DNA from: Enterobacteriaceae endosymbiont of Donacia cinerea
Lineage (GTDB): Bacteria > Pseudomonadota > Gammaproteobacteria > Enterobacterales > Enterobacteriaceae
Direction of reading: 5' to 3'
NCBI RefSeq assembly: GCF_012569925.1
Contig: NZ_CP046204.1
Location: 64,314 to 128,313, forward strand
Length of the DNA: 64,000 nucleotides
Shown here: positions 13,986-34,937 of the stretch, piece by piece
Layout: each line of letters starts with the position of its first letter
Numbering within the stretch: position 1 is the stretch's first letter
The notes under the pieces: generated by a model
Told to the model about the DNA's origin: nothing
Databases searched by the model: none
What the model saw: the letters and a program-made list of their open reading frames with translations, nothing else
Position numbers and translations under genes: made by a program

Positions 13986-14177
13986 ATGGCTGTTCAAAAA
14001 CATAAAAAATCAAGATCTAAAAGAGGAATGAGACGTTCTCATGATAAATTATCTAATAATAAAATTTTATTAATAAATAAAAAAACAGGAAGAAAATATT
14101 TATATCATCATATAACTGATGATGGATTTTATAGAGGAAAACGTATTCTTATTAAGAATAATAATAATGTAAAATAA
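13986..14177 (+). CDS. rpmF: 50S ribosomal protein L32
   Basis: The 63-residue product begins MAVQKHKKSRSKRGMRRSHD and contains HHITDDGFYRGK, both diagnostic of L32. The C-terminus is a few residues longer (IKNNNNVK). In E. coli rpmF leads an operon into plsX-fabH-fabD; here fabD starts only 16 bp after the rpmF stop, so plsX and fabH have been deleted. Confidence 0.97.
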   Translation: MAVQKHKKSRSKRGMRRSHDKLSNNKILLINKKTGRKYLYHHITDDGFYRGKRILIKNNNNVK

Positions 14178-14193
14178 ATATTTATTATAAAAT

Positions 14194-15149
14194 ATGAAAA
14201 AATTTGCTGCTGTTTTTCCTGGACAGGGAACTCAATTTACTGGAATGATATCTTGCTTATATATAAAATATAAAATTATAAGGGAAACTTTTTATTTTGC
14301 TTCAGAAATACTTGGATATGATCTATGGAACCTTATTAAAAATGGACCTTTAAAAAAATTAAATAAAACATACTATACACAACCTGCTATTTTAGTAACA
14401 TCTATAGCTATATATAAACTATGGATACAAAAAAACAAAATATTACCTAGTATAGTTACTGGTTATAGTTTAGGTGAATATACAGCTATGGTATGTAGTA
14501 ATATTATTAGTTTTATGGATGCTATTAAAATAGTAGAATTCAGAGGAAAATTAATGCATGAAATATCATCTCATTTGAATGATTTCAAAATTAATGGATA
14601 TTATATGAAAACTATTATTGGATTAAAAAAAAAAAAATAGAAAATATTTGTAAAAAAATATCAATAAATAATAATGTTATTTCAATATCAAATTATAATT
14701 CTCCTAATAATATAACAGTTAGTGGAAATAAATTAGCTATAATAAAGGCCATTAAAATATTTAAATCTTTAGGTGCATATATAATACCTATTAATATAAA
14801 TATACCTTCTCATTGTTTATTAATGAAACCAATAGCATATAAATTTAAAATTTTTTTAGATAAAATTATTATAAATAAACCAAATATTAAATTTATTAAT
14901 AGTACAAATTGTAGACATGAAAACTCATCTAAAAAAATCAAAAAAAATTTAGTAAAACAATTATATTCTACAATTAATTGGGTGGGATGTATAAATTTTA
15001 TAGAAAAACAAAATATATTTAATATAATAGAATTTACTCCTAAAAATATGTTGAAAAAAATATCACAACAAATTACAAAAAATATTAATATAAATTCAAT
15101 TTATAATGTAAAAACATTTCTTTTAACATCTAAAAAATATAAAATTTAA
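14194..15149 (+). CDS. fabD: Malonyl-CoA:ACP transacylase, interrupted by a 1-nt frameshift in an A13 tract
   Basis: FabD loads malonyl groups from CoA onto ACP. The first frame (14194-14640, 148 residues) carries FPGQGTQ and the nucleophile S92 in GYSLGEY, then runs into a TAG after thirteen A's (14625-14637). The next frame continues the protein exactly: one added A turns IIGLKKKK-stop into IIGLKKKKIENICKK, matching E. coli IIGLDDASIAKACEE. It goes on through SISNYNSPNNITVSGNK and the catalytic His in IPSHCLLMKP to TAA at 15149. With the extra base the protein would have 318 residues (309 in E. coli). Conservation on both sides suggests a working gene rescued by slippage, rather than a dead one. 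Residue 91 is Tyr where E. coli has His. Confidence 0.9.
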
Positions 15150-15158
15150 TACAAACAT

Positions 15159-15911
15159 ATGTTAAAAAATATTCATTTTAAAAATAAAATAGCTTTAGTT
15201 ACTGGAGCAAGTAAAGGGATAGGTTATAGTATTGCTAACACATTAGCAAATTATGGTGCCTATGTAATAGGTACGTCAACTAATATTAATGGAATAAAAA
15301 AAATTAATAATTATTTAGGTAAAAATGGAACTGGTTTAATTCTTGATTTAAAAAATAAATCACCATGTATGATTAATAATTTAATTAGATATATTATAAA
15401 TAACTTTAAAAAATTAGATATACTTATTAATAATGCTGGGATCATATATGATAGGCTTGTATTAAATATGACAGATTATCAATGGGATGATGTATTACAA
15501 ATTAATTTAACTTCTATTTTTAGAATTTGTAGAGAAGTTATTTATTATATGTTAAAAAAATCATTTGGTCGTATCATTAATATTGGATCTACTATAGGAA
15601 TTACTGGAAATATAGGACAAGCTAATTATGCAGCATCTAAATCAGGAATTGTTGGATTTAGTAAATCTTTAGCTAGAGAAGTAGCTTCTAAAGGTATTAC
15701 CGTAAATGTTATATCTCCTGGTTATATTAAAACTAATATGACATTAAATCTTCAAAAAAAAAATCATGATAGTATCATAGCACAAATTCCATCTAAACGT
15801 TTTGGTTATCCTCAAGAAATAGCTGATGCTGTAATTTTTTTAGCTTCTGAAAAAGCATCTTATATTACAGGAGAAATACTTAATATTAATGGTGGTTTGT
15901 ATATGGGATAA
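15159..15911 (+). CDS. fabG: 3-oxoacyl-[ACP] reductase (NADPH)
   Basis: FabG reduces beta-ketoacyl-ACP in fatty-acid elongation. The 250-residue SDR protein has the cofactor motif TGASKGIG, NNAGI, the catalytic Ser in NIGSTIG, and YAASK (Tyr and Lys). It ends GGLYMG, close to the E. coli C-terminus GGMYM. It starts 10 bp after fabD and precedes acpP as in the E. coli fabDG-acpP-fabF order. Confidence 0.97.
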   Translation: MLKNIHFKNKIALVTGASKGIGYSIANTLANYGAYVIGTSTNINGIKKINNYLGKNGTGLILDLKNKSPCMINNLIRYIINNFKKLDILINNAGIIYDRLVLNMTDYQWDDVLQINLTSIFRICREVIYYMLKKSFGRIINIGSTIGITGNIGQANYAASKSGIVGFSKSLAREVASKGITVNVISPGYIKTNMTLNLQKKNHDSIIAQIPSKRFGYPQEIADAVIFLASEKASYITGEILNINGGLYMG

Positions 15912-15974: not shown

Positions 15975-16214
15975 ATGAGTAATTCTATTACTAAACGTAT
16001 TAAAAAAATCATTATTAATCAATTAGGAATTAAAAAAAAAAAATTTTTTCATGATTCTTCTTTTAAAAAAGATTTAGGTGCAGATTCTCTTGATACTATA
16101 GAAATTATAATGGCCTTAGAAGAAGAATTTAATATTGAAATTTTAGATGAAGATGCTGAAAAAATTACTTCTCTTCAAGAAGCTATTAATTATATTAATA
16201 ATTATAAAAAATAA
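15975..16214 (+). CDS. acpP: Acyl carrier protein
   Basis: The 79-residue acidic helical protein carries the phosphopantetheine attachment serine in DLGADSLDT (about residue 38) and the following helix [11 protein letters not shown] that contacts Fab enzymes. It also serves LipB in lipoate synthesis. AGGA lies 15 bases before ATG. An exceptionally long hairpin follows immediately after its stop and separates it from fabF. Confidence 0.98.
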
Positions 16215-16312: not shown

Positions 16313-17557
16313 ATGTTTAAACATAGGCGTGTAGTAATTACTGGTATTGGTATGATTACTCCAATAGGAAATTCAATAGAATCTAATTGGTTTAATCTTA
16401 TTAATGGTAATAGTGGTATTAATTTTATTAATACTTTTAATACTAGTAAATATAAAACTAAAATTGCTGGATTAATAACAAATTTTAAATATCAGAATTA
16501 TATTTCTGATAAAAAAAAAAAAAATATTGATTTATTTATTCAATACGGTTTAGTAGCATGTAAAGAAGCTATTAAAAATTCTGGTTTAATATTAAAAAAA
16601 TCTTACAATCCTAGATTTGGAATTTCTGTAGGTTCTGGTTTAGGAGGTATTAATTTAATAGAAAAAAATGCTAATATTTTATATAAAAAAGGCCCTAAAA
16701 AAATAACTCCATTTTTTATGACATCAACACTTATGAATATGTTAACCGGGAATATTGCAATAAATTATAAAATAACAGGACCTAGTTTAACAATTAGTAC
16801 AGCTTGTAGTTCTGGAATACATAATATTGGAATTGCTTTTAAGATGATATCTTATAATGATGCTGATGTAATGATAACAGGAGCTTCAGAAAAAGCTATA
16901 ACACCTTTAAGTTTAAGTGGTTTTTGTGCAATGAATGCTTTATCTAAAAGAAATAATAAACCACAACAAGCAAGTAGACCATGGGATAAAGATAGAGATG
17001 GTTTTGTACTTGGAGATGGTGCAGGTATAATAATTTTAGAAGAATATAATCATGCAAGAAAAAGAAATGCAAATATTTTGGCTGAATTAGTAGGTTTTGG
17101 GATGAGTAATGACTCATATCATATAGCTGCTCCTTCCATTAATGGAGAAGGAGCACAATTAGCAATGTTAAATGCACTTAAAGATGCTAATCTTGATCCT
17201 GAAAAAATTAAATATATAAATGCACATAGTACATCAACTATTTTAGGAGATATAGCGGAAGTAAATGCTATTAAGAAAATTTTTAAAAATAATTGTTATA
17301 AATTATGTGTAAGTTCTACTAAATCAATTACTGGACATTTATTAGGTGCTGCTGGTGCAATTGAATCTATTTATTCTATTTTATCTTTAAAAAATCAAAT
17401 AGTTCCTCCTACAATTAATTTAGATAATCCTGATAAAAATTTAGATTTAGATTTTATTCCTAAAATTTCAAGAGATGTTCGTAATATGGAATATGTATTA
17501 TGTAATTCTTTTGGTTTTGGAGGAACTCATGCATCATTAATTTTTAAAAAAATATAA
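16313..17557 (+). CDS. fabF: 3-oxoacyl-[ACP] synthase II
   Basis: FabF condenses malonyl-ACP with acyl-ACP. The 414-residue protein keeps the Cys-His-His triad: Cys in STACSSGIHNIG, the first His in NAHSTST (the family norm is NAHGTST), and the second His in SITGHLLGAAG. The C-terminal NSFGFGGTHASLIFKKI is as in E. coli. Because fabH is missing from this cluster, FabF (or a FabB elsewhere) may also have to start chains. tmk follows 90 bp later, with pabC and mltG of the E. coli cluster deleted. Confidence 0.97.
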   Translation: MFKHRRVVITGIGMITPIGNSIESNWFNLINGNSGINFINTFNTSKYKTKIAGLITNFKYQNYISDKKKKNIDLFIQYGLVACKEAIKNSGLILKKSYNPRFGISVGSGLGGINLIEKNANILYKKGPKKITPFFMTSTLMNMLTGNIAINYKITGPSLTISTACSSGIHNIGIAFKMISYNDADVMITGASEKAITPLSLSGFCAMNALSKRNNKPQQASRPWDKDRDGFVLGDGAGIIILEEYNHARKRNANILAELVGFGMSNDSYHIAAPSINGEGAQLAMLNALKDANLDPEKIKYINAHSTSTILGDIAEVNAIKKIFKNNCYKLCVSSTKSITGHLLGAAGAIESIYSILSLKNQIVPPTINLDNPDKNLDLDFIPKISRDVRNMEYVLCNSFGFGGTHASLIFKKI

Positions 17558-33941: not shown

Positions 33942-34937
33942 ATGTTATCTGATGATATAGTTATTATTGCAAAAAAGGAAATTGATGCAGTAAAAAATAT
34001 TAATAATTTAAATAAATTAAAAATTAAATATTTAGGTAAAAAAGGATATATTACAACACAATTTTTATTAATAAAAAATTTAAATAAAAAAGAAAAAATT
34101 TATAAAAGTATTATTTTAAATAAACAAAAAAAACAAATAAAAAAAATAATAATAAAACGTAAAAAAGAAATAGAATTAGAAAAAAACGATGAAAAATTAT
34201 CTAATCAAAAAATTGATATTACTTTACCAGGAAAATATATTAAAATTGGTTCAGAGCATCCTATTAAAACGATAATTAATGAAATCGAGGAATTTTTTAT
34301 AAATATTGGTTTTAAGATAGTTACAGGACCAGAAATAGAAGATGTTTATCATAATTTTGATGCTTTAAACATTTCAAAAAATCATCCGATAAGAAAAGAA
34401 CAAGATACATTTTGGTTAGATAAAAATGTTTTATTACGTACTCAAACATCTAATATACAAATTAGAATAATGAAAGAAGAAAAACCTCCTATACGTATAT
34501 TAACTTCTGGAAAAGTATATCGTAATGATTATGATAGTAATCATACACCTATGTTTCATCAAATAGAAGGTTTATTTATTGATAAAAAAGTAACTTTTAC
34601 TAATCTAAAAGGAATATTAAGTTTATTTCTCAATTTTTTCTTTAATAAAAAATATAAAATACGTTTTCGACCTTCTTATTTTCCTTTTACTGAACCTTCT
34701 TTAGAAGTAGATATTTTAAATAAAAATAAACAATGGATAGAAATTTTAGGAGCAGGAATGGTACACCCTAATGTATTAAAAAACATTAAAACAAATTTTT
34801 CTAAATATTGTGGATTTGCTTTTGGTTTAGGAATAGAAAGATTAGCTATGTTACGTTATAATATTAATGATATTCGTTTATTTTATGAAAACGATATACG
34901 TTTTCTTAAGCAATTTAAATTTAATAATTTTATATGA
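33942..34937 (+). CDS. pheS: Phenylalanyl-tRNA synthetase, alpha subunit
   Basis: PheS carries the class II active site of the alpha2-beta2 enzyme. Motif 2 is seen around SGKVYRNDYDSNHTPMFHQIEG and motif 3 in FGLGIERLAMLRY; Ala in CGFAFGLG, the Phe-specificity residue, is kept. The N-terminal helical coiled-coil is Lys/Asn-rich. The 331 residues match E. coli (327). pheT starts inside the last codons (4-nt ATGA overlap). Confidence 0.97.
   Translation: MLSDDIVIIAKKEIDAVKNINNLNKLKIKYLGKKGYITTQFLLIKNLNKKEKIYKSIILNKQKKQIKKIIIKRKKEIELEKNDEKLSNQKIDITLPGKYIKIGSEHPIKTIINEIEEFFINIGFKIVTGPEIEDVYHNFDALNISKNHPIRKEQDTFWLDKNVLLRTQTSNIQIRIMKEEKPPIRILTSGKVYRNDYDSNHTPMFHQIEGLFIDKKVTFTNLKGILSLFLNFFFNKKYKIRFRPSYFPFTEPSLEVDILNKNKQWIEILGAGMVHPNVLKNIKTNFSKYCGFAFGLGIERLAMLRYNINDIRLFYENDIRFLKQFKFNNFI

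Follow-up and report, generated by a model that had tools for sequence, protein, structure and literature searches.

The fabD gene of the Enterobacteriaceae endosymbiont of Donacia cinerea is interrupted by a single-base frameshift at a run of thirteen A residues, and the same break is found in the symbionts of three genera of reed beetles. On the basis of comparative sequence analysis we consider it probable (roughly 0.7) that this is an ancient, one-off frameshift in a gene that is still functional, and that full-length FabD would be produced mainly through RNA-polymerase slippage, by which one A would be added to the transcript.

The fabD locus and its break

The analyzed stretch of DNA (64 kb; referred to here as the window) belongs to a two-contig genome that totals 468,015 bases, with a chromosome of 462,896 bases; Reis et al. 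2020 give 462,896 + 5,119 in their Table 1 (PMC7289800). FabD is single-copy in this genome. The features of the locus are the following:

13986-14177, + strand: upstream neighbour of 63 aa, called as an open reading frame and presumed to be rpmF
14194-14640, + strand: fabD first part, zero-frame open reading frame of 148 aa, from ATG 14194 to TAG; Pfam Acyl_transf_1 match over the cut-off
14625-14637, + strand: A13 tract, where slippage is proposed; all 19 related genomes have A9, A10 or A13 at this codon
14638-14640, + strand: zero-frame stop TAG, directly 3' of the A13 tract
14595-15149, + strand: fabD second part, -1 (+2) frame, 184 open codons, stop 15147-15149
15159-15911, + strand: fabG, intact, starting 9 bases past the fabD stop
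15975-16214, + strand: open frame of 79 aa, called as an open reading frame and presumed to be acpP
16313-17557, + strand: intact open frame of 414 aa, called as an open reading frame and presumed to be fabF

Catalysis by FabD depends on a Ser, an Arg and a His residue. The nucleophile motif G-Y-S-L-G-E-Y lies inside the first part, with the Ser codon at 14467-14469, and the catalytic His is encoded by CAT at 14811-14813 in the second part, in which the FabD sequence proper begins at about 14636 and which gives a sub-threshold Pfam match. The first ATG, GTG or TTG of the second frame is the ATG at 14823, downstream of the catalytic His codon. With one base more at the tract, or with a -1 step, the two parts are read as a FabD of 318 aa, residues 1-306 of which align with a solved bacterial FabD (E 8.8e-71). 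Read across the junction, the gene shows full-length homology to FabD together with the catalytic Ser, Arg and His motifs, and it is open apart from a single-base frameshift, which lies in an A/T tract at least about 9 bases long. A preliminary description of the locus had reported thirteen A's followed by an in-frame TAG, the restoration of a full-length FabD by one added A, and a catalytic His kept by the second part. All of this was confirmed, the tract and the stop being in phase with the ATG at 14194.

Conservation of the break among reed-beetle symbionts

The comparison set consisted of 24 reed-beetle symbiont genomes of the same genus, including that of the D. cinerea symbiont itself. 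In 19 of them (16 from Donacia, two from Macroplea and one from Neohaemonia) the break in fabD lies at one shared codon, and its phase is identical throughout. Counted from the aligned start, the N part of these shifted genes spans 147-155 codons, the continuing frame is open for 184-190 codons in all 19, and reading through the junction gives 316-321 aa. All five Plateumaris genomes have an intact fabD of 320-321 codons from the aligned start, in which the corresponding position holds no stretch of seven or more A's, and the restored peptide of the shifted genomes can be aligned with this intact clade without a gap over the junction. All 24 genomes have the sequence motifs that surround the three catalytic residues (Ser, Arg, His). 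Additionally, 17 relatives from other genera have open fabD frames of at least 308 aa at the best match.

The tract is A13 in seven of the shifted genomes, A10 in eleven and A9 followed by G in one; the variants are A10-C-AA in D. vulgaris and A9-G in D. tomentosa. Tract codons 145 and 147 are Lys codons in each of the 19 shifted genomes and in none of the five intact ones. This suggests that the A-run itself has been kept, two of the three tract positions being Lys. Lys codons are spelled AAA in 97% of cases within the window (70 AAG of 2,133), so the all-A spelling alone means little.

In the protein database, where the N part alone is represented, the proteins of two more species of the published table, D. 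semicuprea and D. versicolorea, have 147 and 160 aa, respectively, with the same KKK end. A further entry (P0006) may stem from one more reed-beetle symbiont with this break: it is a 148-aa FabD N part, 84% identical, and its contig measures 104,830 bases.

Origin and age of the frameshift

A single change is sufficient to explain the distribution of the break on a tree of RluC plus FabG, which was rooted on Plateumaris by choice and in which FabG was missing in two of the 24 rows. The same result was obtained with an outgroup-rooted tree of FabD plus FabG from which the tract columns had been removed: the 19 shifted genomes group together (98/97), with the intact Plateumaris clade as their sister, on a tree that has some long branches in the outgroup and two free-living rows of differing letter make-up. 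Two free-living bacteria served as outgroups, along with three other symbionts whose FabG is partial; the Escherichia and Pectobacterium rows were dropped for want of a usable FabD. A FabF search for relatives returned 80 loci of free-living or other bacteria, none of which belonged to the genus; of four candidates tested for the outgroup, two were usable.

From these trees we infer that the frameshift has a single origin, in the ancestor shared by the Donacia, Macroplea and Neohaemonia symbionts, and has been inherited since. The preliminary description had spoken of a missing base. The break is real, and it appears to be the ancestral state of the whole clade of 19 genomes rather than a local loss. 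The host branching given by Reis et al. is the same, and the diversification of the host subfamily is placed there at 75-100 million years (PMC7289800). Together with the single change on the tree, this would make the frameshift younger than 75-100 million years and let it predate the separation of Macroplea/Neohaemonia from Donacia.

Split fabD genes in other small genomes

The search was extended to 93 small genomes (up to about 0.9 Mb) of the family, outside the genus and with a match among 392. Open frames of at least 313 aa were present in 13 of these, and the remaining 80 were examined further. The fabD gene is split in nine of the 93 (9/80 of those examined further), namely in G232 and G112, which belong to one genus and are split at different sites; in G284, G330 and G158 of one genus; in G296; and in G325, G254 and G148 of one genus (g126). 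Two of these genera are Buchnera. The junction carries A10 in eight of the nine and A9 in G284, and in six of the nine the shift has to be corrected in the same direction as in the D. cinerea symbiont. In genus g126, whose member G254 is Buchnera, fabD is split at A10 near residue 79, the phase is the opposite one, and all three genomes also have a split fabG. In the Buchnera-type genome G112 (L146), fabD is split at the codon homologous to that of the D. cinerea symbiont, with the tract at 734-743; the shared codon is an apparent case of convergence.

PheT and FabG were used as controls in the same 80 genomes. In 76 of them PheT has its full length and no frame split, although one of the 76 (G154) has an in-frame TGA; the other four comprised one without a match, two with weak partial matches and one cut between contigs. 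FabG is split in three of the 80, all of one genus, and in G260 it matches only from residue 35. In Fisher tests, which ignore relatedness, the frequency of splits in fabD was distinguishable from that in PheT (p 0.003), though not from that in FabG (p 0.13). The idea of fabD as a unique frameshift hotspot is accordingly weak.

Proposed bypass of the frameshift

In the proposed mechanism, RNA polymerase would slip on the A9-A13 run and introduce one extra A in a fraction of the transcripts. These would be in frame and would yield full-length malonyl-CoA:ACP transacylase, and the remaining transcripts would yield the 148-aa stub without the catalytic His. Slippage on runs of 9 A or T is known from bacteria, and a review puts the corrected transcripts at 12-50% in the symbionts of aphids and ants (PMC5009743). 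Homopolymers were the site of 151 of the 157 transcription insertions in Buchnera, which mostly added one A or T, the direction needed at fabD; against slippage, frame-restoring transcription errors were not detected, according to the same report (PMC5574713). Public RNA-seq reads of 2 x 150 bp (ENA PRJEB73718) have been mapped to the symbionts of D. marginata, D. thalassina, D. versicolorea and M. mutica. The tract is A9-A10 in 12 of the 19 shifted genomes. Tracts of this length should slip less than A13, and the FabD yield may therefore be low there.

One added A in the transcript and a -1 ribosomal step give an identical protein. The main rival explanation, which we regard as rather unlikely, is that ribosomes read unedited mRNA into full-length FabD by a -1 frameshift, programmed or casual, at A AAA AAA. 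This slippery heptamer is present in the right phase in all 19 genomes (as A AAA AAG in D. tomentosa), and the zero-frame stop comes right after the A-run in 13 of the 19 and right after the A AAA AAG of D. tomentosa. The latter resembles the slippery site of E. coli dnaX, with which fabD shares both the A AAA AAG/A site and the -1 direction. However, E. coli dnaX gives two useful products with the help of stimulators, whereas no conserved stimulator was seen for the symbiont fabD in the 19 genomes, as judged from Shine-Dalgarno-like words and from folding relative to shuffled sequences. A Shine-Dalgarno-like word upstream of the tract was found in only one of the 19, and folding downstream was about that of shuffled sequences (mean z -0.44), with two of the 19 (D. 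thalassina and Neohaemonia) under -2. Moreover, the tract is always at least 9 long, which exceeds what the heptamer needs, and the opposite phase of the split in genus g126 means that a single -1 ribosomal step cannot mend fabD there.

It is very improbable that the two parts have become separate genes, with products that combine into a split FabD. Each half has been conserved with an open frame, and a GTG codon overlaps the stop in three of the 19 genomes. Nevertheless, in 11 of the 19 the second frame lacks ATG, GTG and TTG all the way from the stop preceding it to a point 60 codons beyond the beginning of the tract, which makes separate translation of the second half unlikely, and the first ATG of this frame in the window lies beyond the catalytic His codon. 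Furthermore, the position of the break is presumably inside a subdomain of the FabD fold, which we also count against two genes.

The comparison of genomes supports the earlier proposal in so far as a full-length FabD would still be obtained by bypass at the poly(A) tract. The full-length product itself, a bypass mainly at the level of transcription by polymerase slippage, its efficiency and the activity of the product are what we infer from the sequences.

Selection on the two halves of fabD

Pairwise omega values (NG86; rough values at about 20% GC) were calculated for 11 shifted and three intact pairs, and all 14 pairs gave omega below 1. In the second half omega was 0.19-0.70 in the shifted pairs and 0.35-0.55 in the intact pairs, and in the first half 0.10-0.34 and 0.26-0.34, respectively. 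The second half had the higher value in 10 of the 11 shifted pairs (in one of them by 0.186 vs 0.184) and also in all three intact pairs, so the difference points to no loss of constraint beyond that of the intact clade. The differences at codon positions 1, 2 and 3 numbered 167, 100 and 213 in the second half, and 111, 67 and 226 in the first half. On these values, the second half is under purifying selection.

These results bear on the explanation that fabD is a pseudogene, or is becoming one, and that the conserved open frames are remnants, which we consider highly improbable. The frame has been lost in 19 genomes, and AccA and FabH were not found, so the pathway is possibly marginal. Against this, the second frame is open in all 19 and omega is below 1 in every pair. 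The catalytic motifs are retained throughout, and no second frameshift or stop was found inside the fabD reading in any of the 19, despite an N part that has diverged to 56% identity. The break has thus been kept in all 19 shifted genomes without decay of the gene, and neither accumulated stops or frameshifts nor relaxed selection were found in them.

A homopolymer assembly error, which the preliminary description had itself named as a possible refutation, is effectively excluded: homopolymers are generally error-prone and all assemblies apart from that of the M. mutica symbiont are short-read only, but the 19 assemblies agree in phase with tracts of 9, 10 and 13 and with the D. vulgaris and D. 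tomentosa variants, and the M. mutica assembly, made from PacBio plus Illumina data, shows the break with A10 by two sequencing technologies. Assembly error, pseudogene and two genes were all rejected on the evidence given against each.

The fatty-acid pathway of the symbiont

We take the neighbours of fabD to be rluC, rpmF, fabG, acpP, fabF, tmk and holB, with rpmF named after its sequence and its place in the gene order. The preliminary description calls the remaining fab cluster intact. This is true of fabG, acpP and fabF, which are open; rpmF and fabD are adjacent, with plsX and fabH absent between them, and FabH was not found in the D. cinerea symbiont genome. AccA was not found in any of the 24 reed-beetle symbiont genomes, the intact clade included. 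A loss of AccA linked to the frameshift was considered and rejected, since AccA was not found in the intact clade either, which leaves no correlation. A FabZ/FabA-type dehydratase is present.

AccC was searched for with the CPSase/biotin-carboxylase ATP-grasp domain against the 24 genomes. Frames of CPSase size (1,073-1,120 aa) were found in 23 of them and broken pieces in G003; weak matches occurred in frames of 314-320 aa in five genomes. None of these frames resembles AccC. During this search, two interrupted CPSase matches were observed, unlike the other 22 genomes: a large CPSase gene, probably carB, with internal stops in the D. piscatrix symbiont (G003:C1:184672-186716), and an interrupted domain match in the D. 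crassipes symbiont (G016:C1:182836-185175).

Fatty-acid synthesis is described as retained in reed-beetle symbionts in the genome report (PMC7289800). Since AccA was not found, malonyl-CoA would come from the host and FabD would be the entry step; the symbiont may therefore depend on host malonyl-CoA admitted by FabD. With AccA not found in the 24 genomes and FabH not found in that of the D. cinerea symbiont, it is less evident than in E. coli that FabD is needed.

A tentative and somewhat doubtful extension of this idea is that the off-frame state of fabD is itself selected, as it could provide a low, slippage-limited dose of the sole entry for host malonyl-CoA. Such selection would account for the lack of reversion by +1 A in all 19 genomes, and for the repeated occurrence of split fabD in Buchnera-type lineages, once at the homologous codon (G112).

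Relation to known systems

Frameshifted poly(A)-tract genes of Buchnera and Blochmannia are reportedly rescued by transcriptional slippage, according to Tamas et al. (2008) as cited in PMC3017870 and PMC5009743. The present case is the same in that an AT-rich insect symbiont has a frameshift in a long A-run of an otherwise intact gene; it differs in that the gene is fabD, that the break characterizes one clade of 19 genomes, and that it is known from sequence alone. A Blochmannia study of 2010 reportedly found an old, conserved homopolymer frameshift without decay. That frameshift concerns another symbiont lineage and another gene, whereas the one in fabD extends over three of the four sampled host genera, with the fourth as an intact sister. 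In Blochmannia vafer, eight frameshifted genes are described, including dnaX, dnaG, dxs, pth, ribF and visC (PMC3017870). As in fabD, genes essential in E. coli are among those broken at A/T tracts there and are read as functional; fabD does not occur in the text of that paper. The word "frameshift" does not occur in PMC7289800, nor do "frameshift", "fabD" and "slippage" in PMC12508126.

Homopolymer frameshifts retained in insect symbionts are thus a known class, to which fabD is an unusually well-resolved addition. What is new, as judged from the genomes compared, is the retention over three host genera without reversion, together with the recurrence of split fabD. In public annotation fabD appears as a stub of 147-160 aa in those species that the protein search returned, and fatty-acid synthesis could consequently be called broken in these symbionts. 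Since a single origin is inferred, the sister clade is intact and the descendants are many, it can be asked whether homopolymer frameshifts are tolerated or maintained.

Frameshifts and tracts elsewhere in the genome

The 64 kb of the window were scanned for frame changes against the open reading frames of the P. sericea and M. mutica symbionts, with window matches for 63 of 70 and 79 of 90, respectively, and fabD was the only gene in which one was found. A frame change flagged at 34867-34934 proved to be an artefact, caused by an out-of-frame open reading frame overlapping pheS upstream of pheT. The window contains 54 A-runs of at least 9 on the coding strand of open reading frames of at least 150 aa, a size just above that of the fabD N part. 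No general breakage of genes was seen at long tracts: 19 of the 20 other A/T runs of at least 13 in the genome lie within single open frames of 95-1,122 codons. The longest A/T run found is a T20 at G000:C1:414244, with no open frame of more than 28 codons across it. Two A/T13 runs, at G000:C1:216320 and G000:C1:341417, are located only 2 and 7 codons, respectively, before the end of their open frames and are possible sites of C-terminal frameshifts.
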